A DNA stretch of 64,000 nucleotides, from assembly GCA_020053735.1 (NCBI GenBank), contig JAGVMP010000009.1, forward strand, positions 124,001 through 188,000. The letters run 5' to 3'. Each line of letters starts with the position of its first letter. Position 1 is the first letter of the stretch. The DNA is from Pseudomonadota bacterium. GTDB lineage: Bacteria; Pseudomonadota; Gammaproteobacteria; Burkholderiales; Methylophilaceae. This document shows, piece after piece, positions 1-57,823 of the stretch. The position numbers and the translations under genes are program-made. The notes under the pieces are model-generated. The model was not told the origin of the DNA, did no database searches, and saw nothing but the letters and a program-made list of their open reading frames with translations.

Positions 1-42
1 CTGAAGCTGGTTATTCATACGTGAAAGCCAATATCCATAAGG
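1..42 (+). repeat. Palindromic repeat family, long form (3' part), in frame in gltX
   Basis: ctgaagctggttattcatacgtgaaagccaatatccataagg; first 30 nt identical to the dnaX copy, then runs into the short-form core ccaatatccataagg. Confidence 0.88.
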
Positions 43-443
43 GTTCCATGGCATCTAATTTGATAAGTGCGCCTGATTTGAAGGCTGTGTTAAATCTGTA
101 TCGTGAACGTGCCAATAACTTGAATCAACTGGCTAACGATGTGGCGTATTTTTATACCCTGCCACAAGCCAGCTCGGCCGATGTAGAAAAGCATATTACG
201 CCAGAAATTATGCCCGCTATGCAAAAACTGCAGCAGCAGCTTACGCATATTGAGTGGACGGCTGAGGCGATTCATCAGGCAATCAATGCAGTGGTGGCTG
301 AATTTGGGCTTAAGTTTCCTAAGCTTGCCATGCCGCTACGCGTGATGCTGACGGGTATTGCACAATCACCCAGTATCGACCAAGTGATGGCTTTATTAGG
401 CCAAAATGAAACCTTAACAAGAATCAACGCATACCTTAAATAA
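3..443 (+). CDS. gltX: Glutamyl-tRNA synthetase, C-terminal part (5' end outside window)
   Basis: C-terminal MPLRVMLTGIAQSPSIDQVMALLGQNETLTRINAYLK is typical of GltX; the frame is open to the window edge at position 3. Confidence 0.92.
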   Translation, partial: EAGYSYVKANIHKGSMASNLISAPDLKAVLNLYRERANNLNQLANDVAYFYTLPQASSADVEKHITPEIMPAMQKLQQQLTHIEWTAEAIHQAINAVVAEFGLKFPKLAMPLRVMLTGIAQSPSIDQVMALLGQNETLTRINAYLK

Positions 444-836: not shown

Positions 837-2078
837 TTGGCAATTAAACCTTCTGGATACGGCGAAAATACCTTAGCGAATCCTAGCACTCAAACAGTTG
901 CGTCTGATGGCGCAATTGTTTTGGTCAGTATTGATTTTGACGAGCCTGATTATGCAGAAAGTTTGCAAGAACTTCGCCAACTGGTCACTTCTGCAGGTAT
1001 GCAAGTGCGCGCCACCATTGAAGGCAAGCGCAGCGTGCCCGATGCAAAATTATTCATTGGTAGCGGTAAAGCCGATGAGTTGAAGTTGATGTTAGAAGCC
1101 AGTGAAACTAATCTAGTCGCTTTCAACCACGATTTAAGTCCGTCGCAACAGCGCAATTTAGAGCGTTTTTTACAAGCCAAAGTGCTGGATAGAACTGGCT
1201 TAATTTTAGATATCTTTGCACAGCGTGCCAAAAGTCACGAAGGTAAATTACAAGTTGAATTAGCGCAGCTAGAGCATTTATCCACTCGCTTAGTACGCGG
1301 CTGGACCCACTTAGAGCGACAAAAAGGGGGTATTGGTGTACGCGGCGGTCCAGGTGAGAAACAATTAGAGCTTGATAAGCGCATGATTGGTGTGCGCGTC
1401 AAACAATTGCGCGAGAAGCTCGTAAAACTTAAATTGCAGCGCAGTATGCAGCGCAAATCGCGTAAACGCAGTAATGTAATGACAGTATCGTTAGTGGGTT
1501 ACACCAATGCAGGCAAATCAACTTTGTTTAATCGACTGACGCAATCGGGCGTTTACGCAGCAGATCAGCTTTTTGCCACGCTAGATACTACTTCGCGCAA
1601 ACTATACTTGGGCAGTGCGCAATCCGATTACGATGAACATGGCCAATATTTAGGTCGTAGCGAAGTGGTGATGTCAGACACAGTAGGGTTTATTAAACAC
1701 CTGCCTACCACCTTGATAGAAGCGTTTGGCGCCACTTTAGAAGAGGCTGTACAAGCTGACTTATTGCTGCATGTGATAGATGTGGCCAGCACTAATCGCG
1801 ACGCGCAAATTACGCAGGTAAATAAAGTGCTCACCGAAATTGGTGCGGCTGAGGTGCCACAAGTATTGGTGCTCAATCAAATTGATCGGCTTGCCAAAGA
1901 ATTCGATAGTGCCTTAAATGACACTGCGGCGGGCTTTGAGCGAGATGAATATGGTAGAATTTATCAAGTGCGCGTGTCAGCTAAAACAGGCGCGGGCTTG
2001 GAATTTATTAGGCTGGCGTTAGCAGAGCATCAACAGTGGTTAAAAAGATTAAGCACTGAAGAAAGCGCTTATGCATAA
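837..2078 (+). CDS. hflX: GTPase HflX (TTG start)
   Basis: GGxGxRGPGE(K/T)QLE motif and G1 VGYTNAGKSTLFNRL; hfq-hflX-hflK-hflC order. Confidence 0.97.
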   Translation: MAIKPSGYGENTLANPSTQTVASDGAIVLVSIDFDEPDYAESLQELRQLVTSAGMQVRATIEGKRSVPDAKLFIGSGKADELKLMLEASETNLVAFNHDLSPSQQRNLERFLQAKVLDRTGLILDIFAQRAKSHEGKLQVELAQLEHLSTRLVRGWTHLERQKGGIGVRGGPGEKQLELDKRMIGVRVKQLREKLVKLKLQRSMQRKSRKRSNVMTVSLVGYTNAGKSTLFNRLTQSGVYAADQLFATLDTTSRKLYLGSAQSDYDEHGQYLGRSEVVMSDTVGFIKHLPTTLIEAFGATLEEAVQADLLLHVIDVASTNRDAQITQVNKVLTEIGAAEVPQVLVLNQIDRLAKEFDSALNDTAAGFERDEYGRIYQVRVSAKTGAGLEFIRLALAEHQQWLKRLSTEESAYA

Positions 2079-2112
2079 AGTTTATATTAAAAAAATAGTT
2101 CGGAGTTTTTGA

Positions 2113-3336
2113 ATGATTAAAATACCTCAGATTAGATTACCTGAGTTTAAATTTTTAGGAATTAAGTTTCCAGGTTTTAGATTTCCTGGCTTTGGCCAAA
2201 AAAACAATGAAGGCCCGCCTGATTTAGATCAAGTGTTGCGCGATTTAAGCCAAAAAATTAACAATCTTTTTGGTAAGGGTAAAGGCTCAGGTGGCTTTAA
2301 TAGTAATAATCAGCCTGCTGACAATAAAGATTTTAGTGTGCCAATCGCGCCGATTTTGGGCATTATTGTAGCCATTTGGCTGGCGACCGGCTTTTATATT
2401 GTTGACCAAGGTTCTGTTGGTGTTGTGCAGCGTTTTGGTAAATACACCACCAACACCGAGCCTGGCCCTCGTTGGCATTGGCCATTCCCTATTGAATCGG
2501 TAACGGTTGTTAACATGGAGCAGGTACGTCGCTTAGAAGTGGGTTATCGCAGCAGTGGCGAGGGTGCTGGTAGCAAAACCAAAGTGCCTAGAGAAGCTTT
2601 GATGTTGACCGAAGATGAAAATATCATTGATATGCAGGTGGCAGTGCAATACAAGCTTAAAAGCGCTAAAGACTTTATCTTTAATAATCGCGATACTGAT
2701 AAATCGGTAATGTCAGCCGCAGAAACCGCCATTCGTGAAATAGTCGGCAAAAGTAAGCTGGATGACCTGTTGCAAAAAGGCTTGCCCGATACCTCCGCTC
2801 GCATGCAAGCGATTTTGGATAGCTATAACACGGGTATACTCATTACCAGCGTTTCTAGACAAAAAGGCGCGGCGCCAGAACAGGTAAAAGAAGCGTTTGA
2901 TGATGTTAACCGTGCCAACCAAGATTACCAGAGGCAAATTAACTTAGGCCAAGCTTATGCTAATGATGTGATTCCTAAAGCACGCGGTAACGCATCTCGT
3001 TTGGCGGCAGAAGCTGCAGGTTATAAACTTAAAGTTGAAAGCGAAGCGACTGGTAACGCCAGCCGTTTTGAGCAGATACTAACGCAATATAATAAAGCGC
3101 CAGAAGTGACGCGCCAACGTTTATATTTAGACGCGCAAGAGCAAATCATGTCGAACACCAGCAAAATTATTGTCGACCAAAAAGGCGGCAACAGCATGCT
3201 CTATTTGCCGCTAGATAAACTGATGGAACAAACCCGTAACACTAATACAGGTGCAGCTTCTGCGGCAGCTGCTAGCGTGGTGCGAGAAGAAGAATCGTCA
3301 AGCGAAGATACGCGTAGCTTATCGCGCGATCGCTAG
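2113..3336 (+). CDS. hflK: FtsH protease modulator HflK
   Basis: Band-7/SPFH protein with N-terminal GPPDLDQVLRDL and VDQGSVGVVQRFGKY; precedes hflC. Confidence 0.96.
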   Translation: MIKIPQIRLPEFKFLGIKFPGFRFPGFGQKNNEGPPDLDQVLRDLSQKINNLFGKGKGSGGFNSNNQPADNKDFSVPIAPILGIIVAIWLATGFYIVDQGSVGVVQRFGKYTTNTEPGPRWHWPFPIESVTVVNMEQVRRLEVGYRSSGEGAGSKTKVPREALMLTEDENIIDMQVAVQYKLKSAKDFIFNNRDTDKSVMSAAETAIREIVGKSKLDDLLQKGLPDTSARMQAILDSYNTGILITSVSRQKGAAPEQVKEAFDDVNRANQDYQRQINLGQAYANDVIPKARGNASRLAAEAAGYKLKVESEATGNASRFEQILTQYNKAPEVTRQRLYLDAQEQIMSNTSKIIVDQKGGNSMLYLPLDKLMEQTRNTNTGAASAAAASVVREEESSSEDTRSLSRDR

Positions 3337-3400
3337 AAGTAATATCCTAGAAATAACATCTAGGCGTGATATCTAAATAAGAGTTAAAGGTAGAGAGAAT

Positions 3401-4270
3401 ATGAAAAGTATTGGTACAGCTTTAGTTGGATTGTTAGTCGCTTTAATGCTTCTGACAATGTCTTTGTTCATTGTCGACCAGCGTGAATATGCCTTAGTGT
3501 TTAGGTTGGGTGAGTTAGTCTCGGTTAAAAAAGAGCCTGGCCTATATTTCAAAGTGCCTTTGCTAGATGACTTAAAATATTTCGAAAAGCGCATCGTAAC
3601 GCTAGACTGGGAGCAGCCAGCGGAGATTGTGACGAGCGAAAACAAAACCATGACCGTAGATTCGTTTGTGAAATGGCGCATTATCGACCCTGCTAAGTAC
3701 TATGTATCAGTCAAAGAAGGCGGCGAAGCGGCAGCAGAGGACAGGTTGTCGCAAGTAGTGAACGCGGGGTTGCGTGATGAGTTTGGTAAACGTACCGTGC
3801 GCGAGGTGATTGCTGGCGAGCGTGGTGCCATTATGCAAAATATGAAAATACGTGCCGACAAAGAGGCACGCCAAATCGGTATTCAAGTGGTGGATGTGCG
3901 CTTGAAACGAGTGGATTATTCTGAAGATATTTCGAAATCAGTGTACGACCGTATGATTGCAGAGCGTAAGCGTATCGCCAATCAGTTGCGTTCTGAAGGT
4001 TCTGCTGCATCCGAAAAAATTCGTGCTGATGCTGATAAACAGCGCGAAGTGATTATTGCAGAAGCTTTTCGCGATGCGCAAAAAATGAAAGGTGAAGGTG
4101 ACGCCAAAGCCGCAGAAATTTACTCAAGCGCTTATGGTAAAAACCCAGAGTTTTATGCGTTTTACCGCAGCCAAGAAGCCTATAAAAACAGCTTTAAAAG
4201 TAAATCTGACGTGATGGTGTTAGACCCAAGCTCAGAGTTCTTTAAATATATGCGTGGCACTGGCAAATAA
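3401..4270 (+). CDS. hflC: FtsH protease modulator HflC
   Basis: SPFH family, FIVDQREYALVFRLGE...; paired with hflK. Confidence 0.96.
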   Translation: MKSIGTALVGLLVALMLLTMSLFIVDQREYALVFRLGELVSVKKEPGLYFKVPLLDDLKYFEKRIVTLDWEQPAEIVTSENKTMTVDSFVKWRIIDPAKYYVSVKEGGEAAAEDRLSQVVNAGLRDEFGKRTVREVIAGERGAIMQNMKIRADKEARQIGIQVVDVRLKRVDYSEDISKSVYDRMIAERKRIANQLRSEGSAASEKIRADADKQREVIIAEAFRDAQKMKGEGDAKAAEIYSSAYGKNPEFYAFYRSQEAYKNSFKSKSDVMVLDPSSEFFKYMRGTGK

Positions 4271-4308
4271 GCCTAAAGACAAGATGATGGTTACAAGATG
4301 AGGGCAAT

Positions 4309-4491
4309 TTGAATACGCTACTTGTCGCACTGGGCTTAATGTTGGTGTTAGAGGGGTTGCTGCCGTTTATTGCGCCACAGGCATGGCGCGAAACCTTTAA
4401 ACGTATGATAGAACTCAAAGATGGCCAATTGCGCTTTGTTGGCATCGTCTCCATCATTGCTGGTTTATTGCTCATCCTGTTAAGTCGTTAG
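4309..4491 (+). CDS. DUF2065 family small membrane protein
   Basis: 60 aa, LGLMLVLEGLLPFIAPQAWRETFKRM; usual position between hflC and hisZ/purA in betaproteobacteria. Confidence 0.85.
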   Translation: MNTLLVALGLMLVLEGLLPFIAPQAWRETFKRMIELKDGQLRFVGIVSIIAGLLLILLSR

Positions 4492-4548
4492 CCTAAGTCA
4501 TTAGCTCGAACCGCTAGTTTTACCGCTTTTGCTAGTATAATAGCGCCT

Positions 4549-5709
4549 ATGCGTAACTGGTTACTTCCCGAATTTATTGAAGACGTACTGCCCACTGAGG
4601 CGGCGCGCATTGAGCAACTACGCCGTGATTTGCTTGATTTGTTTAAAGTGCACGGTTATCAATATGTGATTCCACCAACTTTAGAGTATTTGGAATCGCT
4701 TATTACTGGTACTGGACACGATTTAGATTTAGCCACATTTAAAGTGGTTGATCAACTCACTGGCCGCCTAATGGGTATTCGTGCTGACATGACACCACAA
4801 GCGGCACGCATTGATGCGCACATGCTGAATTTGAAGGGTGTTTGCAGGCTATGTTATGCGGGGACCGTATTACGTACTAAGCCAGATGGTCTTGCGCGCA
4901 CGAGAGAACCCTTGCAAATAGGCGCCGAGCTATTTGGCCACGCGGGTATCGAAAGTGATGTTGAAATTCAACGCTTAATGATTAAAGCCCTGCAATTGTT
5001 GGGTTTAAATCAAATTCACATTGATTTTAGCCACGTTGCGATTTTTGAAAGCTTGGTAAAAGCTGGCAATATTGATGCTGATTTAGAGCAAGCCTTATAT
5101 GGGGCTTTACAAAGCAAAGATAAAGCGGCCTTAGCAAGTTTAATAAAAGATTTGGACCAAACTATTCAGAAAGCCTTGCTCAGTTTAACTGAGTTAAATG
5201 GCGATATCAGCGTGTTGGATCAAGCATTAAAAGTCTTGCCAAAATTGCCAGAAATTACTCAGGCACTCGCAAATTTAAGCGCTGTTGCCAGCAAGCTGAG
5301 CGATTTAAACGTACAAGTTTCGTTTGATTTGGGCGAGTTGCGCGGTTATCACTATCACAGTGGCATTGTGTTTGCCGCTTATGCCAAAGGCTACACAGGC
5401 CCAGTGGCGTTAGGTGGACGTTATGATGAAGTGGGCGTAGCATTTGGTCGCGCGCGACCCGCCACTGGCTTTAGTATCGATTTACGTGGCATTGTAGCTA
5501 CGCTGCCGCCTGCACATCTACCCAAAACCATCCTTGCTCCAGAAGATAACGACGCCGCGTTGTTGGCCAAGATAGAAGCGCTGCGTACGGAAGGCTTGGT
5601 GGTGATTCAGGTATTACCACACGCGCAAGTCAGTGCTGCAGAGCTGAATTGCGACAGTGCGCTGGTGATGCGCGACGGTGAATGGCGCATAGAAGCATTA
5701 AAACATTAA
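4549..5709 (+). CDS. hisZ: ATP phosphoribosyltransferase regulatory subunit HisZ
   Basis: HisRS-like catalytic domain without the anticodon domain; adjacent to purA. Confidence 0.94.
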   Translation: MRNWLLPEFIEDVLPTEAARIEQLRRDLLDLFKVHGYQYVIPPTLEYLESLITGTGHDLDLATFKVVDQLTGRLMGIRADMTPQAARIDAHMLNLKGVCRLCYAGTVLRTKPDGLARTREPLQIGAELFGHAGIESDVEIQRLMIKALQLLGLNQIHIDFSHVAIFESLVKAGNIDADLEQALYGALQSKDKAALASLIKDLDQTIQKALLSLTELNGDISVLDQALKVLPKLPEITQALANLSAVASKLSDLNVQVSFDLGELRGYHYHSGIVFAAYAKGYTGPVALGGRYDEVGVAFGRARPATGFSIDLRGIVATLPPAHLPKTILAPEDNDAALLAKIEALRTEGLVVIQVLPHAQVSAAELNCDSALVMRDGEWRIEALKH

Positions 5710-5728
5710 TTAAAAAAGTTTAGAACTT

Positions 5729-7069
5729 ATGAATAAAGCAGCAAAAAACGTTGTCGGACGTAATATTGTAGTGATAGGCACACAATGGGGCGATGAAGGC
5801 AAAGGCAAAATTGTCGATTGGCTGACCGACCACGCCCAAGGCGTAGTGCGCTTTCAGGGCGGTCATAATGCAGGCCATACACTGGTCGTTGGTCAAGGTG
5901 CAGCACAAAAAGTGTACAAACTTAACCTAGTTCCTTCTGGCATTGTGCGTAGCGGTGTTAATTGCTACATCGGCAATGGCGTGGTACTTGATGCTGCGCA
6001 TTTGCTCAGTGAAATTGAAAGTTTAGAAAAAGATGGTTTGGAAGTAAAAAGTCGCTTAAAAGTCAGCCCTGGTTGCCCACTGATATTGAGCCACCACGTG
6101 GCTTTAGACACTGCGCGTGAAGCGAAACGTGCTGTAAAAATTGGCACCACAGGCAAAGGCATTGGCCCAACTTACGAAGACAAAGTCGCGCGCCGCGCTT
6201 TAAGGGTTTACGATTTATTCTATCCAGAACGCTTTGCCGATAAATTGCGTGAAGTGATGGACTATCACAATTTTGTTTTAACCAATTACCTTGACGCCCA
6301 GCCTGTTGATTTTAATCAGCAATATGATGCCAGTATGCAGCATGCAGTGGCACTTAAGCCACTTATTTCAGATATTTCTGCCGAGTTGTACGCTGCGAAT
6401 GCGCGTGGCGAAAATCTGTTATTTGAAGGGGCGCAAGGCACCTTGTTGGATATTGACCACGGTACTTATCCTTATGTAACATCTAGCAACTGTATTGCTG
6501 GCCAAGCCAGTGGCGGTACGGGTGTTGGCGCCAATATGCTGCACTATGTGCTGGGCATTACCAAAGCCTATACCACGCGCGTGGGTGGCGGGCCATTTCC
6601 TAGTGAGTTAGATATTGAGTCTGCAAGCTGTCCTGGCAATCAAATGTCGGTCAAAGGCCAAGAAATCGGCACAGTGACCAAAAGAAAAAGAAGATGTGGT
6701 TGGTTCGATGCAGCTGCGTTACGTCGTTCTGCGCGTATTAACGGCCTCACTGGCTTGTGCATCACCAAGCTAGACGTGCTGGATGGCATTGATGAACTGC
6801 AAATCTGCACGGGTTATGAGCTAGATGGCAAGTCAGTGGATATGTTGCCGATTGGTGCAGATGATGTGGCGCGTTGCAAACCAATTTACGAAAAAGTTGC
6901 AGGTTGGCATGATAATACGTTTGGTGTAAAAACTTGGGAAGGCTTGCCAAAAGCGGCACAGCATTACCTCAAACGTCTGGAAGCCTTATGTGGGGTGCCG
7001 ATTGCGATTATATCGACGGGGCCAGAGCGCGATGAGACCATTGTGCTTGAGCATCCTTTTTCTGCATAA
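5729..7069 (+). CDS. purA: Adenylosuccinate synthetase
   Basis: [21 protein letters not shown] motif. Confidence 0.98.
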
Positions 7070-7205: not shown

Positions 7206-7775
7206 ATGATAAATTCAATTAAGAATCAAAAGCTTGCTTGGGCAATTACAGGTTCTGGCCATTACCTGCGTGAGTCTCTTGGGATTTTGCAAGCGCTTGA
7301 AAATGTGGATATTTTTTTAAGCCGCGCAGCAGCAGAAATCATCAAGCAATATGGCTTTCAGGCTGAGTTAGATGCAACGGACCACAAGGTTTATCAGGAT
7401 AAAACGGCCAGCAGCGTGCCTGTGGAGCTTTTTTATGAAGGGAAGTATCACACACTGGTAATTGCACCTGCTACCTCTAATACCATCGCTAAAATGGCCT
7501 ATGGATTTTCAGACTCACTCGTAACCAATCTCTACGCACAAGCAGGAAAAACGCGGGTACCTAGCATTATATTTGCCTGCGATACTGTGCCAGTTTTAAC
7601 CTCTGGTTTTATTGAATCAGAGGCGCCACGCGACAATATGGTGCAGGTATTTCCGCGCCAAATTGATTTAGATAATGTGGCGAAACTAGCCACCTTTGAA
7701 CATACGCAGGTTGCGAGCGATATGCATATGCTCCAGCAGGCAATATCCATGCGGCTTGCGGGCCTGCCAAAATAA
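7206..7775 (+). CDS. dmrB: Flavoprotein, dihydromethanopterin reductase DmrB-like
   Basis: Flavoprotein fold (WAITGSGHYLRES, PATSNTIAKMAYGFSDSLVTNLYAQAGK); clustered with H4MPT/methylofuran genes. Confidence 0.75.
   Translation: MINSIKNQKLAWAITGSGHYLRESLGILQALENVDIFLSRAAAEIIKQYGFQAELDATDHKVYQDKTASSVPVELFYEGKYHTLVIAPATSNTIAKMAYGFSDSLVTNLYAQAGKTRVPSIIFACDTVPVLTSGFIESEAPRDNMVQVFPRQIDLDNVAKLATFEHTQVASDMHMLQQAISMRLAGLPK
7731..7768 (+). repeat. Palindromic repeat family, short form, at dmrB 3' end
   Basis: ctccagcaggcaatatccatgcggcttgcgggcctgcc; read in a different frame from the other coding copies. Confidence 0.6.
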
Positions 7776-15558: not shown

Positions 15559-17292
15559 TTAAACAGGTTTTATTGAGTTAGGGATAATTTGCGCTCCTAA
15601 ATCATTCATCAATGCTTTTACAAAGTCATCATTCATAATGGCAGCTTCTGCCCCCGATTGAATCACCGCTTTTTCATTGGCATTTTGCTTAGCGGGTGTG
15701 ACAATTTCTGTGTGTGTATCGCTGGCCACAGCAATATTTAATCGTATTTTGCGACCGAAATAGTCGTTAATGGCATTGGCTAATTTGTCTTGATAACTGG
15801 GGCTGATGAGGTGCTTTTGTGCACTGGCCACGCGTAAATTTATGCTGTGTTCATCGTAACTAACCAATTCACAATTTTGAGCCAGTGCGCGTGCAAGACC
15901 AAGCTTTAGATTTTGTTCGACCAATTTGCGCCAATTGCCATCAAAACTGGCCATGTCTGAAATTGGCACGCTAGAATCCTTATGGGTATTGGTTTCTGGC
16001 GCAGCAGCTTGAATACTAGTGCTGGCTCGTACTGGTTCAGGCGTTGCTTGTTGGTTTAATGGAGCTGCTACTTTTACTGCAGGCGGAGCTACTTTCTCGC
16101 CGTCTTGCGGTGCAAGCGCATTCTTATCTATTGGCGTAACCGCACCTTTTTCTGCTGGCATAAATGCCAACATACGCAATAGCGTCATGGTAAAACCTGC
16201 GTATTCATCTGGCGCAAGGCCAATGTCTCTTCTACCTAAAAGCGCAATTTGGTAATAAAGTTGCACCGTTTCGGCGCTGAGTGTTTGCGCTAAATTCAGT
16301 AGCGCGGCGCGTTCTGGCAAATCGTCAGCAATACTTTGCGGTACGGTTTGTGCAATGGCAATTTGGTGCAGCAAGTTGGCTAAATCATTCAATGCGGCTT
16401 CAAATGACAAGCTACGCGCTTCCATTTGTTTAGCGATTTCGATTATAACGCCACCGCTATTGGCTTTCACGTATGAATAACCAGCTTCAGCTGGTATATT
16501 CTGCGGGGACAACCCTTGCGGTTGCAGGGCAGACAGTATTTCGTATAAATAACTTTGATCAATCGCCCCTAGCATGCTGCGCACTTCTGCCTCGTTCACA
16601 GTTTGGTTACCGTAAGCGATAGCTTGGTCGGTGAGAGACAGCGCATCGCGCATACTGCCTGCCGCTGCGCGCGCAATCAGGTGGATGGCTGTTGGCTCAA
16701 AACTAATCTGTTCTTGGCCAAGTACATGTTTTAAATGTTCCGAAATAGTCGGGCTGGCCATTTGCCGCAAGTTAAATTGCAAACAACGGCTTAGCACGGT
16801 GACAGGTACTTTTTGCGGGTCAGTCGTGCCAAGTATGAATTTAATATGCGCTGGCGGCTCTTCCAGCGTTTTTAGCAGCGCATTAAATGCCTCTTTGGTT
16901 AGCTGGTGTACTTCATCTAGCATGAAAATTTTGAAGCGACCCTGTGTGGGCGCATAAGTGGCTTGCTCGAGCAGCGTGCGCACATCATCAATACCGCGCG
17001 TAGAGGCGGCATTAATCTCAATGTAATCAATAAAACGATCCGCATCAATGCCAGTACAGGCATCACACGCGCCACAAGGTTTGGCGGTGATGCCCGTTTC
17101 GCAATTGAGTGATTTGGCCAAAATACGGGCGAGGGTGGTTTTACCAACGCCACGCGTACCCGTAAACAAATAAGCGTGGTGCAAGCGTTGCTGGTCTAAT
17201 GCGTTGGTGAGCGCACGCACGACGTGGTCTTGCCCTACTAGGTTTTCGAAACTTTTTGGGCGATATTTGCGCGCGAGGACTTGATATGACAT
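15559..17292 (-). CDS. dnaX: DNA polymerase III subunits gamma/tau
   Basis: YQVLARKYRPKSFENLVGQDHVVRALTNAL, Walker A GTRGVGKTTLARILAK; carries an in-frame repeat element. Confidence 0.97.
   Translation of the reverse strand: MSYQVLARKYRPKSFENLVGQDHVVRALTNALDQQRLHHAYLFTGTRGVGKTTLARILAKSLNCETGITAKPCGACDACTGIDADRFIDYIEINAASTRGIDDVRTLLEQATYAPTQGRFKIFMLDEVHQLTKEAFNALLKTLEEPPAHIKFILGTTDPQKVPVTVLSRCLQFNLRQMASPTISEHLKHVLGQEQISFEPTAIHLIARAAAGSMRDALSLTDQAIAYGNQTVNEAEVRSMLGAIDQSYLYEILSALQPQGLSPQNIPAEAGYSYVKANSGGVIIEIAKQMEARSLSFEAALNDLANLLHQIAIAQTVPQSIADDLPERAALLNLAQTLSAETVQLYYQIALLGRRDIGLAPDEYAGFTMTLLRMLAFMPAEKGAVTPIDKNALAPQDGEKVAPPAVKVAAPLNQQATPEPVRASTSIQAAAPETNTHKDSSVPISDMASFDGNWRKLVEQNLKLGLARALAQNCELVSYDEHSINLRVASAQKHLISPSYQDKLANAINDYFGRKIRLNIAVASDTHTEIVTPAKQNANEKAVIQSGAEAAIMNDDFVKALMNDLGAQIIPNSIKPV
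16459..16530 (-). repeat. Palindromic repeat family, long form, in frame in dnaX
   Basis: Minus strand GCCCTGCAACCGCAAGGGTTGTCCCCGCAGAATATACCAGCTGAAGCTGGTTATTCATACGTGAAAGCCAATA; 3 mismatches to the 37815 copy over about 67 nt. Confidence 0.93.
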
Positions 17293-17529: not shown

Positions 17530-17538
17530 AATGAAGAG

Positions 17539-17640
17539 GCGAGCCTTGCCCCCGGCACTTGCTCAATAGTTGTGGCTGCTGGCTTCCGCCCCTGACCAGA
17601 TTGGCTACTTTACAATGCGGGGAGGCCCGCCAGCCGTGAT
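17539..17640 (-). ncRNA. ffs: 4.5S signal recognition particle RNA
   Basis: Minus strand contains CTGGTCAGGGGCGGAAGCCAGCAGCCA (SRP domain IV), complementary ends GCGGGCC/GGCTCGC; upstream of dnaX as in many bacteria. Confidence 0.88.
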
Positions 17641-17713: not shown

Positions 17714-17752
17714 GCCTGCCCTGTAGGTCGCATGGATATTGCTTTGCAGGGC
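17714..17752 (-). repeat. Palindromic repeat family, short form, intergenic
   Basis: Minus strand GCCCTGCAAAGCAATATCCATGCGACCTACAGGGCAGGC. Confidence 0.75.
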
Positions 17753-17777
17753 ACTGTTTTTTATACGTAGTTAAAGC

Positions 17778-22084: not shown

Positions 22085-23452
22085 ATGCAAAATGCATCGC
22101 GTGAGATACCAGCCGCTCCCAGCTTAAGGCAAGCCTTTTGGTATTGGCTGAAGCTTGGGTTTATTAGCTTCGGCGGACCTGCTGGACAAATCGCCATCAT
22201 GCACCAAGATTTGGTAGAAAATAAACGTTGGATATCAGAGCAGCGTTTTTTACATGCACTGAATTATTGCATGCTGCTGCCAGGCCCTGAAGCCCAGCAG
22301 CTGGCTACTTATATTGGCTGGTTGATGCACAATACGCGCGGGGGCTTGGTTGCGGGTATCTTGTTTGTATTGCCATCGTTGTTGATACTAATTGCCTTAA
22401 GCTATATTTACATGCGTTTTGGTGATGTGCCTGCGGTAGCGGGGGTGTTGTATGGCATTAAGCCTGCAGTGGTGGCGATTGTGCTGTTTGCTGCGTATAG
22501 GATAGGTGCCAGAACGCTTACTAATCGGGCGTTGTGGAGCATTGCCATTGCGTCATTTATAGCGATTACACTGTTTCAAATTGCATTTCCATGGATTGTG
22601 TTAGCGGCAGCTGTTGTGGGTTTTTTAGTCAATCGCTTTCAACCGCAATTGTTCGCCAACCGCAGCGCGCATAAAGCCAGTAAAGTGCGCTATGGCCAAG
22701 CTGTCATTGATGACGACACGCCAACACCCAACCATGCAAAATTTAGCTATAAATTAATGGTTAAATTTATTGCGATTGGCTTAAGTATTTGGCTGGCAGC
22801 TATGCTGCTATTGATTTTTTACTTTGGTTGGGTTGCGACTTTTACGCAAATGGCGTGGTTTTTTAGCAAAGCTGCGCTGCTCACCTTTGGCGGCGCCTAT
22901 GCGGTGCTGCCCTATGTGTATCAGGGTGCAGTAGTGCATTATGCGTGGCTCACGCCAGCACAAATGATGGATGGTTTAGCCTTGGGTGAAACCACGCCTG
23001 GGCCACTGATTATGGTGGTTGCGTTTGTGGGTTTTGTCGGCGGCTGGAGCCAAGCTACATTTTTAAACCCGTTTGCGGCGGCGTTGATGGCTGTATGTAT
23101 CGTCACTTTTTTTACTTTTTTACCTTCATTTATTTTTATTTTAGCGGGTGCACCGTTTATTGAGTCGACTAAAAATAATCTTAAATTTACTGCACCGCTA
23201 ACTGCCATTACGGCTGCAGTGGTGGGGGTGATTGTGAGTTTGGCGGTATTTTTTGCACAGCACTTGATTTTCCCTAATGGCATTTGGCCAACCAGCATGT
23301 CTTTTTCTGATGGTCTGCAAGCCAATATTGATGCGGTCTCCATGGCAGCGGTTTTGATAGCAATTGTGTTGCTGTTTAAATTTAAACTAAGCGTGATGAA
23401 GCTGATTGCGATTTTTGCGGCAGGCGGTTTGCTGTATCAATTCTTTGCTTGA
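22085..23452 (+). CDS. chrA: Chromate transporter ChrA family
   Basis: FWYWLKLGFISFGGPAGQIAIMHQDLVE...LLPGPEAQQLATYIGW; second half GGAYAVLPYVYQ...ETTPGPLIMV. Confidence 0.93.
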   Translation: MQNASREIPAAPSLRQAFWYWLKLGFISFGGPAGQIAIMHQDLVENKRWISEQRFLHALNYCMLLPGPEAQQLATYIGWLMHNTRGGLVAGILFVLPSLLILIALSYIYMRFGDVPAVAGVLYGIKPAVVAIVLFAAYRIGARTLTNRALWSIAIASFIAITLFQIAFPWIVLAAAVVGFLVNRFQPQLFANRSAHKASKVRYGQAVIDDDTPTPNHAKFSYKLMVKFIAIGLSIWLAAMLLLIFYFGWVATFTQMAWFFSKAALLTFGGAYAVLPYVYQGAVVHYAWLTPAQMMDGLALGETTPGPLIMVVAFVGFVGGWSQATFLNPFAAALMAVCIVTFFTFLPSFIFILAGAPFIESTKNNLKFTAPLTAITAAVVGVIVSLAVFFAQHLIFPNGIWPTSMSFSDGLQANIDAVSMAAVLIAIVLLFKFKLSVMKLIAIFAAGGLLYQFFA

Positions 23453-29493: not shown

Positions 29494-30612
29494 TTGGCTA
29501 AAACACTTATTATTGCTGCCACCTCAGCGCGGGGTTATGTGCAGGCTGCAGTCGCTTGTGGCTATGCGGTCATCGTGCTAGATGCGTTTATTGATGAAGA
29601 AACCAGGGCGATTGCTAAGCAGACATTTAAATTAAAATTTGATGATTTTGCGTTAGACGCGGTGCATTTTAAACAGATTTTTTCGAGCATTAATTTAGCT
29701 GAAGTGGGTGGCTTTTTGTATGGTAGTTTGTTTGATGACTGCCCAGATGTTCTGGATTGGGTGGCAAAACGGGTGCCAGTCATTGGGAATTCGGCTGATA
29801 TGTTCAAGCAAACCAAGGATTTCAGTTTTTTTGCCTTGTTGGATAGTTTGAATATCGCACACCCTGAAGTGCAGCTCGACTTCCCAGACGATCCTGAACG
29901 TTGGCTTAGCAAACAAATCGGCGGCTGTGGTGGTATGCACATTCAGTCGGCTGGTTTAAAGCTTAAGTCAGATTTTGATAAAACCTATTTGCAACAAGCT
30001 TACTTTCAGGAAAAGTGGGCCGGCACGCCAACCTCTATGCTGTTTGTGGCAGATGGCAACACTGCGCATCTGATTGGCTTTAATCAGCAATTGGTTGCAC
30101 CTAGCAAAAGCTTGCCATATCGTTTTGCTGGCGCTGTCGGCAACGTCGCCCTGCAGCCCAATATCCATAAGGAGTTTGAGCATGCTGCACAGAAGCTCAC
30201 TAGCGCACTGCATTTGTGCGGTATCTGTAGCTTAGACGCGATTATTGATGGTGAAGATGTATGGGTGTTAGAGCTGAATCCACGCCTAAGCGCCACATTT
30301 AACCTGTATGAAAATTTACTGCCATTGCATTTACAAGGCTGTGCAGGTCATTTGCCAAACATGTCGGTTAAAACGAATATCTCACATGCACAATTGATTT
30401 TGTATGCAGAAGTAGTATTGGGTATTCCTAAAAACTTTGCTTGGCCGATCTGGGCGGTAGATATACCAACAGTTGAAAGTGATACATCTGGTGTTAAAAT
30501 TGACCAACATATGCCAATCTGCAGTGTCTTAGCTAGCGCAGAATCAGCAGAGCTGGCGCAAACTTTACTGCTGCTGCGTGCAGAAAAATTAACAGAAATG
30601 CTGAATAAATAA
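29494..30612 (+). CDS. ATP-grasp domain protein of the H4MPT cluster (TTG start)
   Basis: ATP-grasp C-terminal ICSLDAIIDGEDVWVLELNPRLSATFNLYE; lies between mtdB and mch. Confidence 0.8.
   Translation: MAKTLIIAATSARGYVQAAVACGYAVIVLDAFIDEETRAIAKQTFKLKFDDFALDAVHFKQIFSSINLAEVGGFLYGSLFDDCPDVLDWVAKRVPVIGNSADMFKQTKDFSFFALLDSLNIAHPEVQLDFPDDPERWLSKQIGGCGGMHIQSAGLKLKSDFDKTYLQQAYFQEKWAGTPTSMLFVADGNTAHLIGFNQQLVAPSKSLPYRFAGAVGNVALQPNIHKEFEHAAQKLTSALHLCGICSLDAIIDGEDVWVLELNPRLSATFNLYENLLPLHLQGCAGHLPNMSVKTNISHAQLILYAEVVLGIPKNFAWPIWAVDIPTVESDTSGVKIDQHMPICSVLASAESAELAQTLLLLRAEKLTEMLNK
30148..30173 (+). repeat. Palindromic repeat family, short form, in frame in ATP-grasp gene
   Basis: gccctgcagcccaatatccataagga; peptide ALQPNIHK. 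Confidence 0.8.
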
Positions 30613-30618
30613 TGCAAA

Positions 30619-31575
30619 ATGATTGAAAATAACTTAAATGCGAGTGCTCTGCAGCCCAGTATCCATAAGGCCTGCAGGCCGTTGCTTAAAAGCTTAATTG
30701 CACAAGCGAGCGCTTTAGGTATTAATGTATCGCAACACGCAAGCGGCGCCACGATTGTTGATGCTGGCATTGATGTTGCTGGCAGTGCAGAAGCGGGGCG
30801 CATCATTGCAGAAATCTGTATGGGCGGCTTGGGTGAGGTGCACTTAGTAGATAAAAATGTCACAGTGAAATCTCAAAAGCCAGTGTTAGCTTGCCTTGGT
30901 AGCCAGTATGCAGGCTGGAGTTTGAGTCACGAAAAGTTTTTTTCGTTAGGCAGCGGCCCAGCCAGAAGTTTGGCGCAGCGAGAAGATTTGTTTAATGAAC
31001 TTAATTACCAAGATAACGCAGATTTTTCTGTGCTCATTCTGGAAACCAGCAAAATCCCACCGGCAGAAATCATTGAAAAAGTGGCACGCGACACCAAAGT
31101 TAAGGCCGAAAATTTAACTTTTATTTTAACACCTACCACTAGCTTCGCTGGCGCAACACAAATAGCGGCGAGGGTGTTGGAGGTGGCGCTGCACAAGGCA
31201 CATACGCTACATTTTCCGCTAGTGCAGATTGTGAGCGGATATGGTACCGCACCACTGCCGCCAGTTTGCAGTGATTTTTTAACCATGATGGGACGCACTA
31301 ATGATGCCATCCTGTTTGGTGGATTTGTGGAATTGCGGGTAAATTGTAGCGATGATGAAGCCACTAATCTTACGCAAGCGCTGCCTAGTAGTGCTTCCAA
31401 AGATTACGGTAAAACTTTTGCCGAGGTGTTTAAATCTTACAATATGGATTTTTACCTGATTGACCCGATGCTATTTTCGCCAGCTAAAGTAAAAGTGATT
31501 AATTTACAAACTGGCAATGCTTTTGAGGCGGGCGCTTTAAATGAAATGCTTTTAGAAAAATCTTTTAATAATTAA
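30619..31575 (+). CDS. mch: Methenyl-tetrahydromethanopterin cyclohydrolase
   Basis: GGLGEVHLV...PVLACLGSQYAGWSL...FILTPTTSFAGATQIAARVLEVALHKAHTLHF. Confidence 0.94.
   Translation: MIENNLNASALQPSIHKACRPLLKSLIAQASALGINVSQHASGATIVDAGIDVAGSAEAGRIIAEICMGGLGEVHLVDKNVTVKSQKPVLACLGSQYAGWSLSHEKFFSLGSGPARSLAQREDLFNELNYQDNADFSVLILETSKIPPAEIIEKVARDTKVKAENLTFILTPTTSFAGATQIAARVLEVALHKAHTLHFPLVQIVSGYGTAPLPPVCSDFLTMMGRTNDAILFGGFVELRVNCSDDEATNLTQALPSSASKDYGKTFAEVFKSYNMDFYLIDPMLFSPAKVKVINLQTGNAFEAGALNEMLLEKSFNN
30646..30680 (+). repeat. Palindromic repeat family, short form, in frame in mch
   Basis: gctctgcagcccagtatccataaggcctgcaggcc; peptide ALQPSIHKACR. Confidence 0.85.
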
Positions 31576-31620: not shown

Positions 31621-32502
31621 ATGAAAGCTTCGGTTTCTAAGGTTGCAATTTTTACCGATGATGCAGGCTGGCACGGTGCGGAGTTGGGGAGAGCATTTGC
31701 ATCGCATGGAGTTGAGGCGATATTCGTCTCGCTACAAGATTGCGTTATAGATTTGTCGGCGGACTCTTCTAACAGCAAGCCTGTCATAAAAATCCCACAT
31801 TTTAACCAAATGCCAAAAGCTGTTTTTGTGCGCGGTATTGCGGGCGGCACGCTGCAACAAATCACTACACGTCTAAATATTTTGCATATGCTTAAAGCAC
31901 TGAGAGTGCCAGTTTATAATGATGGCAAGGCGATTGAGCGCACAGTAGATAAGGCCATGACCAGTTTTTTGCTATATCAAAACGGTGTTGCAACGCCTGA
32001 AACTTGGGTCTGTGAATCGCGCCAACAAGCGCATGAGATTATTTCTAAGCATGCCCGATTAGTGATTAAGCCTTTATTCGGCTCGCAAGGGCAGGGCGTG
32101 CGTTTAGTGGATAATAAAAAATTACCACTGCCAATGGATGCGCATGTAGATGGCGTATTTTATTTGCAGCAATTTGTAGAGGCTACGCACGATTACCGCG
32201 TGTTTATCGTGAACAATGAAGTGGTTGCTGCCATGCAACGCACGGGCGAAACATGGTTACACAATGTGGCACAAGGTGCGCGATGCAAAGAAATAGATGA
32301 CAAAGACGTCTTAGATATTGCTTTGCAGGCTGCATCGGCACTTGATATTGCCTACTGTGGTGTAGATGTTATTCGCGACAAAGCAGGAAAGTGCTGGGTG
32401 CTGGAGGTCAACAGCATCCCAGCTTGGCGTGGCCTGCAAGAAGTTGCGCAAGCCAATATTGCGCAAGTGTTGGTGAATGATTTTTTAAGCCAGATTGAAT
32501 GA
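31621..32502 (+). CDS. RimK-type ATP-grasp ligase of the H4MPT cluster
   Basis: KAMTSFLLYQNGVATPETWV...VIKPLFGSQGQGVRLV...YCGVDVIRDKAGKCWVLEVNSIPAWRGL. Confidence 0.85.
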   Translation: MKASVSKVAIFTDDAGWHGAELGRAFASHGVEAIFVSLQDCVIDLSADSSNSKPVIKIPHFNQMPKAVFVRGIAGGTLQQITTRLNILHMLKALRVPVYNDGKAIERTVDKAMTSFLLYQNGVATPETWVCESRQQAHEIISKHARLVIKPLFGSQGQGVRLVDNKKLPLPMDAHVDGVFYLQQFVEATHDYRVFIVNNEVVAAMQRTGETWLHNVAQGARCKEIDDKDVLDIALQAASALDIAYCGVDVIRDKAGKCWVLEVNSIPAWRGLQEVAQANIAQVLVNDFLSQIE

Positions 32503-33338
32503 ACGAAGACATGACTAACATCATTTTAGCGCAAGCCTTCAAGGCCGCTTGCATGGCGGAGTTGGAGGCACTTAAGCCGGGCAATGTGCATATTTTTGCT
32601 GATGGCCACGGTATGACGGTGCAAGATTTTATCGCCAGCGCAGATGCGGTAAGTGAGGTGATTGCACAACCCAATTTGATGCTTGGCGAGCGCATTTTGC
32701 ACAGCGTAGAAGCTACCCAGAGCGCAGTAAAAATGAACACCAATCTAGGCATGATTTTGCTATGTGCACCGCTGATTCAAGCCAAATTGTATGTACAAGG
32801 CACTGGCCTGCAGTCCAATATCCATACGGTGCTTGACGGCACTAGTATTGAGGATTCTGAAGCTTGCTTTGCGGCGATTCGCCTAGCAAATCCTGCAGGT
32901 TTAGGTGCTGCAGATATGCACGATGTGCATCTTACCGCCGACTGCACGCTACTACAAGCTATGCAACAGGCCGCTAATCAAGACAGTGTTGCCCGCCAAT
33001 ATGCCAATAATTTTGCTGATGTGTTTGATGGTTTGGCTTATTACCAAAAAGCACTTACCAAATGGCAGCGCCCCGCGTGGGCGGCTACAGCACTGTATTT
33101 GCACTTTTTAAGTAGCTTTTTGGATAGCCATATCGTGCGCAAACAGGGAGAAACCATTGCCAAGTTGGTGCAAAACGAGGCGATAGAGCATGCGGCAGAA
33201 TTTAACAAAGCCTTTAACCCAAAAAATTACCAATCTGCCCTGATGGCGTTTGATGCAGCGCTCAAAAAGCGCGGACTAAATCCTGGCACCAGTGCTGATT
33301 TAACGGTGGCGAGTTTGTTTTTACACGCTATAGCTTAA
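32499..33338 (+). CDS. Triphosphoribosyl-dephospho-CoA synthase (CitG/MdcB)-like protein
   Basis: AFKAACMAELEALKPGNVH..., NTNLGMILLCAPL; overlaps the preceding RimK-like gene by 4 nt. Confidence 0.8.
   Translation: MNEDMTNIILAQAFKAACMAELEALKPGNVHIFADGHGMTVQDFIASADAVSEVIAQPNLMLGERILHSVEATQSAVKMNTNLGMILLCAPLIQAKLYVQGTGLQSNIHTVLDGTSIEDSEACFAAIRLANPAGLGAADMHDVHLTADCTLLQAMQQAANQDSVARQYANNFADVFDGLAYYQKALTKWQRPAWAATALYLHFLSSFLDSHIVRKQGETIAKLVQNEAIEHAAEFNKAFNPKNYQSALMAFDAALKKRGLNPGTSADLTVASLFLHAIA
32805..32829 (+). repeat. Palindromic repeat family, short form, in frame in CitG-like gene
   Basis: ggcctgcagtccaatatccatacgg; peptide GLQSNIHT. Confidence 0.8.
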
Positions 33339-36731: not shown

Positions 36732-37463
36732 TTATGCGAGTAAAGACAACTGTTGCGCAGTAATTTCGCCGCTATGCAGCGCACTGGCGACTAGCGCACC
36801 CGCCACCCCAAGCTGCTTTAATGCCAATAAATCCTCACTATTTCTTACACCACCAGCCGCAAAAAGATTAGTCGGTTTTTTACGTGCATGGTTAAGCTGC
36901 ATCAAAGTTTGTAAGCGTACGACATCTGGCCCCTTGTTACTGCCCACATGATTGAGCGTCATGCAAATGGTATCGTCTGGCCAATATAAGCCACTTGTAT
37001 GTAATTCTGCTGCACCAAGTTCAACGTTATCTAGCTTATCCAGCGATAGCACGTGCCTGCTCTCGTAGGCATCACTCACTGCCCGATAATCTTGCAAAGC
37101 GTGAACATTTTCACTGCCAAATACCACACGGATATTGGCTTGCGGCGCATATAAAATGCGCGCATTGACATTGCGCACACCGTTATCCACCCACCAAGTG
37201 ATTTGTGGGTACATGTCGCTGAGGAGCTCAATCTTCTCAAAATGGTTGCCAGTGTCTGAAATTGCATCAATATCCGCGATGTAGATGGTGCGAAATGGGT
37301 ATAATTTTAACAAGCCTTCTACAATACTAAAAACATCACTCGAGTCGCTTAAAATGGACTTGATAGGCTGGTAATTGGCGCGTTGTCCGTGCTTAGCATG
37401 CACGACGTGACATTCATCTAACGGGCCTTGTTTTAAATCGATAACGGGAATGACTTGCAACAT
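36732..37463 (-). CDS. HisA-like TIM-barrel protein of the H4MPT/methylofuran cluster
   Basis: VIPVIDLKQG...VVHAKHGQRANYQPIKS...TIYIADIDAISDTG...LFAAGGVRNSEDLLALKQLGVAGALVASALH. Confidence 0.85.
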   Translation of the reverse strand: MLQVIPVIDLKQGPLDECHVVHAKHGQRANYQPIKSILSDSSDVFSIVEGLLKLYPFRTIYIADIDAISDTGNHFEKIELLSDMYPQITWWVDNGVRNVNARILYAPQANIRVVFGSENVHALQDYRAVSDAYESRHVLSLDKLDNVELGAAELHTSGLYWPDDTICMTLNHVGSNKGPDVVRLQTLMQLNHARKKPTNLFAAGGVRNSEDLLALKQLGVAGALVASALHSGEITAQQLSLLA

Positions 37464-38540
37464 CAGCCTTTCGTCACTATGCCAATTAAGAAAATATTTG
37501 TATGCGAGTTTATCACTGGCGGTGGCTTGTGTGATGAAACGCTGCCAGAAAGCCTAGTAAAAGAGGGCACGTTGATACGCGATGCACTACTGCAGGACTT
37601 GAGCGAATTATCATACGAAGTAAGTACTACTTACGATGTGCGTTTCGATGCGCCTGTGCTATGCGCTACTTGCGTTGCGGTTAACAAAAATGACGATGTT
37701 TGGCAGATTTGGCAATTGCAAATGCAGGCCGCCGATGCGGTGTGGTTGATTGCGCCAGAAACCGGCGACATCTTAAAAAAACTTACCCAAATGGCCGAAG
37801 AACCTAAATTGAATGGCCTGCAACCGCAAGGGTTGTCCCCGCAGAATATACCAGCTAAAGCTGGTTATTCGTACGTGAAAGGCCCGCTGGTATTGGGTTG
37901 TGGGACTGCCTCTATTGAAGTCACCAGTAATAAAATGGCCACCTATCTAGCTTTGGAAGCTGCTGGCATCCCTAGCATTCCTACATATAACTTTGAAGAT
38001 TGGCCAAAAAGGCATTGGATTTGGTTGGCAAAACCCAATGACGGAGTGGGTTGCAGCGATACCGCTTGTTTTAATAACCCCGATGATTTAGAAGATTGGA
38101 TTGAAGACAACCACAAGCAAATGACACACGTGATTCAGGCTTTTCAGCCAGGTGAGGCGGCCAGTATTTCGTGCGTCATGCGACACGGAAAAGCACAATT
38201 ATTAAGTTGCAACACTCAACATATAGAGATTAATAATCAAATGCTTAGTTATGCGGGTGGGATGGTCAATGGCATGCGCGATTATTGGCCTCAATTTGAG
38301 TTTATTGCCAACAAAATAGCGCAAATGTTACCTAGCTTGGCAGGTTATGTCGGTATTGATGTAATTGTGGATGATGACGAAATTATTGTGGTGGAAATTA
38401 ACCCACGTCTCACCACCACCTATGCGGGTATGCGCGAATCTATCAGCGCCAACCCAGCTGAGTTGGTTATCAATACGCTGACAAATCCTGATTTTGTATG
38501 GCCCACCTTACAAAGAAATTTAGTGAGTATCGATGTTTAA
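37455..38540 (+). CDS. ATP-grasp protein, tyramine--L-glutamate ligase (MfnD)-like; carries an in-frame repeat
   Basis: KIFVCEFITGGGLCDETLPESLVKEGTLIRDALLQDL; GYVGIDVIVDDDEIIVVEINPRLTTTYAGMR. Confidence 0.8.
   Translation: MQHQPFVTMPIKKIFVCEFITGGGLCDETLPESLVKEGTLIRDALLQDLSELSYEVSTTYDVRFDAPVLCATCVAVNKNDDVWQIWQLQMQAADAVWLIAPETGDILKKLTQMAEEPKLNGLQPQGLSPQNIPAKAGYSYVKGPLVLGCGTASIEVTSNKMATYLALEAAGIPSIPTYNFEDWPKRHWIWLAKPNDGVGCSDTACFNNPDDLEDWIEDNHKQMTHVIQAFQPGEAASISCVMRHGKAQLLSCNTQHIEINNQMLSYAGGMVNGMRDYWPQFEFIANKIAQMLPSLAGYVGIDVIVDDDEIIVVEINPRLTTTYAGMRESISANPAELVINTLTNPDFVWPTLQRNLVSIDV
37815..37883 (+). repeat. Palindromic repeat family, long form, in frame in MfnD-like gene
   Basis: ggcctgcaaccgcaagggttgtccccgcagaatataccagctaaagctggttattcgtacgtgaaaggc. 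Confidence 0.93.
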
Positions 38541-57760: not shown

Positions 57761-57780
57761 ACGTGTTAAAACAATATGCT

Positions 57781-57812
57781 CTGGAGGCCAATATCCATAA
57801 GGCCTGTAAGGC
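57781..57812 (+). repeat. Palindromic repeat family, short form, between ppiD and fabI
   Basis: ctggaggccaatatccataaggcctgtaaggc. Confidence 0.8.
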
Positions 57813-57823
57813 ATATGTTTTGA

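Follow-up and report, generated by a model that had tools for sequence, protein, structure and literature searches.

A long-form palindromic unit in gltX of a free-living methylotroph belongs to a dispersed, possibly selfish, two-module repeat family

The analysed stretch of DNA, a window of 64,000 nucleotides (C9:124001-188000, C9 being a contig of the 2.44-Mb genome under study, that of a Methylotenera-like bacterium), begins inside a palindromic repeat that lies within gltX. Our reading, held tentatively and at somewhat less than even chances, is that the copy in gltX represents the long form in full and belongs to a probably selfish family of dispersed palindromes built of two modules, here called P and H, of which P would overwrite host sequence within genes and insert between them. 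The best-known palindromes in protein-coding sequence are those of Rickettsia and Wolbachia; with a family in a free-living methylotroph of small genome, the phenomenon can be tested in an ordinary bacterium. Since some orthologues of gltX lack the repeat and others carry it in the short or the long form, the order of the steps can be read directly. Moreover, replacement of equal length within genes is found beside true insertion between genes, which a simple transposon does not predict; at stake in the equal-length replacement is the choice between transposition, templated overwriting and the drive of an uptake signal.

Window positions 1-42 read CTGAAGCTGGTTATTCATACGTGAAAGCCAATATCCATAAGG, translated in the gltX frame as (A)EAGYSYVKANIHKGS. 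This agrees with the quotation in the preliminary description, the leading G of which sits one base upstream of the window. The other half of the copy, which that description proposed to seek in the upstream sequence, is present there (GCGCGCCTGCAACCGCAAGGTTTGTCCCCGCAGAATATACCAG...) and completes a long-form unit at C9:123964-124054, which over positions 6-96 of the long consensus is 92% identical to it. The features of this end of the window are as follows.

1-54, forward strand: 3' part of the complete long-form unit in gltX, from the consensus match and the alignment with relatives; its 5' part, C9:123964-124000, precedes the window
1-443, forward strand: 3' end of gltX (glutamate--tRNA ligase; whole gene C9:122959-124443, 494 aa), from the open reading frame and a match to TIGR00464 (E 1.8e-170)
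55-66, forward strand: TAATTTGATAAG tail following the long unit in gltX, resembling the T-rich 3' flank of intergenic copies

Together, this tail and the 57-nt module H make up most of the 25 codons by which gltX of this genome exceeds the short-form gene.

The partner copies named earlier in dnaX, the mfnD-like gene, the ATP-grasp gene, mch and the citG-like gene all proved real. The copies in the window other than that in gltX are listed here.

7728-7766, forward strand: stretch resembling the short palindrome, at the C-terminal end of a flavoprotein gene; its conservation in the closest relative, G095, is strong
16458-16531, reverse strand: 5' part of the long form (module H) within dnaX, with 19 extra codons relative to three relatives
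17716-17754, reverse strand: short palindrome in the spacer that separates dnaX from its upstream neighbour, adjoining the SRP RNA
23310-23348, forward strand: short palindrome (GLQANIDAV) in a chromate transporter gene, close to its 3' end
30146-30184, forward strand: short palindrome (ALQPNIHKEF) within the ATP-grasp gene 29494-30612
30644-30682, forward strand: short palindrome (ALQPSIHKAC) in mch 30619-31575, at the 5' end of the gene
32803-32841, forward strand: short palindrome (GLQSNIHTV) within the citG-like gene 32499-33338, length unchanged relative to genome G022
37818-37881, forward strand: 5' part of the long form (module H) within the mfnD-like gene 37455-38540, with 25 extra codons
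42195-42233, forward strand: intergenic short palindrome with convergent genes on either side
57776-57814, forward strand: intergenic short palindrome with convergent genes on either side

NCBIfam confirmed gltX, dnaX and mch; the match to MfnD falls short of the cut-off, and the ATP-grasp and citG-like genes gave no match. A scan of the window with Rfam returned tRNA and SRP RNA only, and the repeat matches no curated family. The bacterial small SRP RNA lies at 17535-17631 on the reverse strand, beside the intergenic palindrome and dnaX.

Chance is excluded for the core by the number of its copies: the window holds 14 near-matches where 1.6 are expected, the genome holds 182 matches with at most three mismatches versus 13 for the reversed pattern (138 in 2.44 Mb with at most two), and 68 full 39-mers occur in 838 kb versus none in a shuffle of 2-base blocks. 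The 838 kb comprise contig C9 and most of contig C14, on which, together with fetched loci, the statistics rest; by gene calls that are greedy open reading frames, 39 of the 68 are intergenic and 29 lie in genes. The idea that the coding copies arose by chance or by convergence at the protein level, with LQANIHAA as a common helix, could appeal to the sites in SecA, MurG and MoaA, where motif-free relatives already resemble the motif. Nevertheless, we find it scarcely credible in view of the shuffle, of the different peptides encoded by reverse-strand copies (e.g. DALQAAWVLPC), and of a codon test that contradicts it. Where two motif-bearing genomes encode the same amino acid, they use the same codon in 62% of cases inside the motif versus 49% outside; when the comparison is with a motif-free genome, the shares are 36% and 48%, the counts being non-independent. 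The codons of the short coding copies are conserved at the DNA level.

Module P is the short palindrome of 39 nt (short consensus ATGCCCTGCAAGCCAATATCCATGCGGCTTGCAGGGCAT), with a consensus stem of 14 bp and a loop of 11 nt that holds the core AATATCCATGC or AATATCCATAA. Module H, of about 57 nt, consists of a small stem-loop and an ACCAGC-TAAA-GCTGGT hairpin. The long form is P carrying H in its 5' arm, after CTGCAA, and has a 96-nt consensus (ATGCYCTGCAACCGCAAGGGTTGTCCCCGCAGAATATACCAGCTAAAGCTGGTTATTCATGCGTGAAAGCCAATATCCATAAGGCTTGCAGRGCAT) to which the full-length units C14:452662-452757, C9:204318-204413 and C10:86770-86865 are 97-99% identical and several others 83-92%. In units of about 150 nt (C14:3103-3254 and others) a second, diverged H sits in the TAAA loop of the first. 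Read from the alignments, an AA dinucleotide is repeated on both sides of H, in P as well as in nested H, and no clear target-site duplications of P were found. The pairs of the H hairpin covary, with 12 double-changed pairs versus a shuffle mean of 2.1 and maximum of 9. For the arms of P in intergenic copies, 19 double changes stand against 18.5 under column shuffle and the hairpin is therefore not proven by covariation; two orthologous examples of matched arm changes are anecdotal.

Long and short copies belong to one family. The preliminary description held that the gltX copy links the two repeat types, and in this it was right: parent-like full units exist, and they carry long and short parts together, so that two families which never co-occur, its own refuting case, are not what the genome contains. 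A single colinear parent did not survive, since the core is joined in both orientations, about half of the long copies having it forward and the rest inverted.

The order of the two forms was read from the relatives. The closest of these, G095, has a gltX that is 95% identical and carries the short form at the same site (CGC CTG CAA GCC AAT ATC CAT AAG GCC TCT GGA GCA CCT), where the genome under study has the long form and the T-rich tail. The gltX proteins of motif-free relatives equal the short-form protein of G095 in length, G083, G106 and G116 have a diverged short-like sequence (CGC CTG CAA GCC AAT or GTC AAT ...), and the site is length-neutral in the four relatives with motif-like sequence. 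Since G095 has the short copy and the motif-free relatives are equal in length, the short copy preceded the long one at this site and itself came without a change of length; the alignment shows that gltX carried P before H. The gltX of this genome also gained an intergenic-type 3' arm besides the T-rich tail, which is what replacement of the short copy by an entire donor unit would produce. Relative to orthologues, the long copies add 25 codons to gltX, exactly 19 to dnaX and 25 to the mfnD-like gene, from which H in genes is recognised as an in-frame insertion.

The proposal that a long parent came first and that the short copies are in-frame internal deletions of it is contradicted at gltX, and we consider it very improbable in general. 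Full-length units do exist and the residual junction does stay in frame, as it requires; against it, the core occurs in both orientations, H is found without P, and G059 and G138 yielded short forms only. Of the genomes searched for the long form, only this one, G095 and G136 had it, and the short form is far more numerous.

H is a separate hairpin module, found also in contexts other than P: at the flank of rnpB, as an H-like insert in a P3 loop, in its own TAAA loop and as standalone R2. More specifically, an H unit without palindrome arms (C14:294300-294360) abuts the 3' end of rnpB, and the RNase P RNA itself, which lies outside the window (L086:14360-14777, equal to C14:294360-294777), has an H-like insert of about 53 nt in its P3 loop, which in G022 is the 4-nt GTAA. 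We had considered the match at the end of rnpB as an insertion inside the gene; the Rfam alignment places it abutting the 3' end, the P3 insert being a separate H-like module. Two standalone R2 units, of the same design as H, adjoin short copies. It is conceivable, though we hold it as doubtful, that a selfish palindrome spreads within genes by overwriting partly matching host DNA of equal length while H inserts into the arm of P, into its own loop and into P3 of RNase P, with no REP-type transposase involved; if this were true, nested elements would tag conserved proteins and an essential ribozyme. An intergenic cluster of several nested, diverged H modules was seen at C9:245900-246250 (L070), with no Rfam match except nearby tRNAs.

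The intergenic and the coding copies of P differ in several respects. Spacers that hold a copy are a median of 73 nt longer than the orthologous spacers, versus -8 nt for spacers without a copy (12 and 161 comparisons), and at C9:104254 the insertion is visible base by base; these alignments identify the intergenic P copies as insertions. Unpaired columns of the short intergenic copies are also linked (z 4.2, 0 of 1000 shuffles), and in two orthologous spacers this genome and G095 have the core in opposite orientations, as an exchange of copies through their palindromic arms would be expected to produce. Short copies within genes are mostly length-neutral relative to motif-free relatives, most informative genes being free of indels at the motif (for instance mfd-like, rhodanese-like, C9_92242, C14_221355, C14_234075, C14_279056, nadC-like and G095 gltX, among others). 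An exception is FdhD (C14_306342), where P is an insertion of 12 codons, so that coding P is not always length-neutral, and a few other sites show small indels nearby. Gene names outside the NCBIfam test, such as mfd-like, rhodanese-like and nadC-like, were assigned by recognising the sequence and are to be taken as presumed. In the coding copies linkage was not detectable (z 0.9, n=27). In the rhodanese-like gene the motif is absent from G022 and G059, partial in G101 and full in G083 and G106.

According to our preferred reading, a family of P and H elements, P would have spread between genes by a transposition-like activity, and within genes it may have arisen from templated overwriting of partly matching sequence, either by gene conversion or by single-stranded element DNA annealing at forks. 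Short-patch illegitimate recombination is a mechanism of this kind, for which a search of the open-access literature gave no pertinent paper. The short gltX copy would later have been replaced by a long unit of the intergenic type, and copies would persist because they are sited in tolerant linkers with the frame kept. Several observations count against this reading: no enzyme for the spread was found, the coding copies lack the linkage that block copying between genes should leave, the arms of P in intergenic copies do not pair above shuffle, and P in FdhD is not length-neutral. Moreover, the intermediate state of G101 and the prior resemblance in SecA, MurG and MoaA fit point-by-point evolution as well as they fit overwriting.

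The chief rival is built on the latter. P could be a signal, of the kind of the uptake sequences in Neisseriaceae and Pasteurellaceae, or a protein-binding site, better matches to which are favoured at a recognition step (DNA uptake or binding); coding copies would then evolve in place by point mutation and intergenic copies would be paired half-sites or terminators. Such a signal would account for the coding copies about as well, given their neutral length, the partial state in G101, the codon identities and the lack of linkage. It also has a precedent in the DNA uptake sequences (DUS), for which dialects, dyad-symmetric pairs and inverted pairs at terminators are described (PMC3630211). We nevertheless regard it as unlikely, since it accounts neither for H nor for intergenic insertions of about 75 nt with copy-and-paste linkage. 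In addition, the conserved unit is 39 bp, the distribution is patchy, and there is only about one copy per 12-18 kb as opposed to roughly 1,900 to 6,000 DUS per genome of 2.2-2.4 Mb (PMC3630211).

Among the known repeat systems, the closest kinds are the palindromic elements of Rickettsia (RPEs), intragenic REPs and, for evolution in place, the DUS; none fits fully. RPEs are insertions of about 100-150 bp. In-frame insertion is seen here for the long copies in dnaX (+19), gltX (+25) and the mfnD-like gene (+25) and for FdhD (+12 aa), most short coding copies being length-neutral. Palindromic elements of Rickettsia and Wolbachia lie in unrelated protein genes with the frame intact as well as between genes, at sites common to orthologues (PMC10969869, PMC3767692). 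The present family is likewise palindromic, found in unrelated genes without a break of frame and also intergenic. By description it is set apart by its free-living betaproteobacterial host and by a 39-nt short form that mostly replaces host sequence, whereas RPEs lengthen it. With the DUS it shares occurrence in place in coding DNA without change of length, inverted intergenic pairs and dialect-like variants (PMC3630211), but its copies are far fewer (DUS occur about once per kb), its unit is much longer, its intergenic copies are insertions and it has the accessory module H. In the open-access literature, no paper was found on such a repeat in Methylotenera, nor on an uptake sequence of that genus.

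An ordinary REP or MITE moved by a transposase was also considered, in which case all copies would be insertions and the equal length in genes would follow from later compensating deletions or from the choice of alignment. The palindromic structure, the intergenic insertions, the 12 codons of FdhD, the REPIN-like tandem doublets of G304 and G339 and the IS-like repeat with P in JACPEG, a betaproteobacterial MAG, are all in its favour. REPs are short stem-loops, as is P, that lie between genes near gene ends and at times within genes in several species, and are defined by a GTAG or CGTC tetranucleotide at the foot of the stem and a cognate RAYT (PMC3733652). That tag is absent from the consensus and from the 97 listed copies, and stem and loop are outside the CGTC range. 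A RAYT transposase as mover was discarded, as a profile search with PF01797 (Y1_Tnp/RAYT), in which positive controls matched, gave no hit in this genome or in eight other copy-bearing members of the genus. A plain REP/RAYT element is thus at odds with the features tested. Like the MITEs (ERIC, RUP, NEMIS and others), the family consists of small, non-coding, dispersed units with inverted ends, of about 75 nt between genes; it differs in its equal-length replacement within genes, in the nesting of modules and in that no parent IS was found in the genome, where only the JACPEG end was sought, in part of the sequence. Considering also the many length-neutral coding sites, that of gltX included, we hold an ordinary REP or MITE to be improbable.

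The repeat recurs in relatives, namely MAGs of Methylotenera and of other Methylophilaceae. Among 150 genomes of the family, high counts were found in about ten members of the genus and, outside it, in one member each of two other genera (G136 and G138), and five members of the genus have almost no copies. Plasmids, phages and viral contigs, searched as carriers, gave no matches. In a scan of the order, only G304 and G339 (tandem doublets), G278 (IS-like repeat) and G366 stood out; the last, from another family, has ten copies of one identical, diverged 22-mer core (TGAAAACCAATATCCATGCGGG). The doublets in G304 and G339 (L320-L339), GC-rich genomes of another family, are tandem pairs of related hairpins. 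In JACPEG, the palindrome is part of an IS-like repeat at which contigs end, and some 50 nt separate it from a GATGAGCC end (loci L272, L273, L287, L290, L294, L295, L303, L309 and L318); a transposase was not seen at those loci, and the end had no match in the part of our genome where it was sought. Finally, an exact match of 23 nt, comprising arm and core, lies with varying flanks inside a mutS-like gene, which we take to be mutS from its sequence, in four Gallionella or Nitrosomonadales MAGs (L275, L276, L301 and L302).
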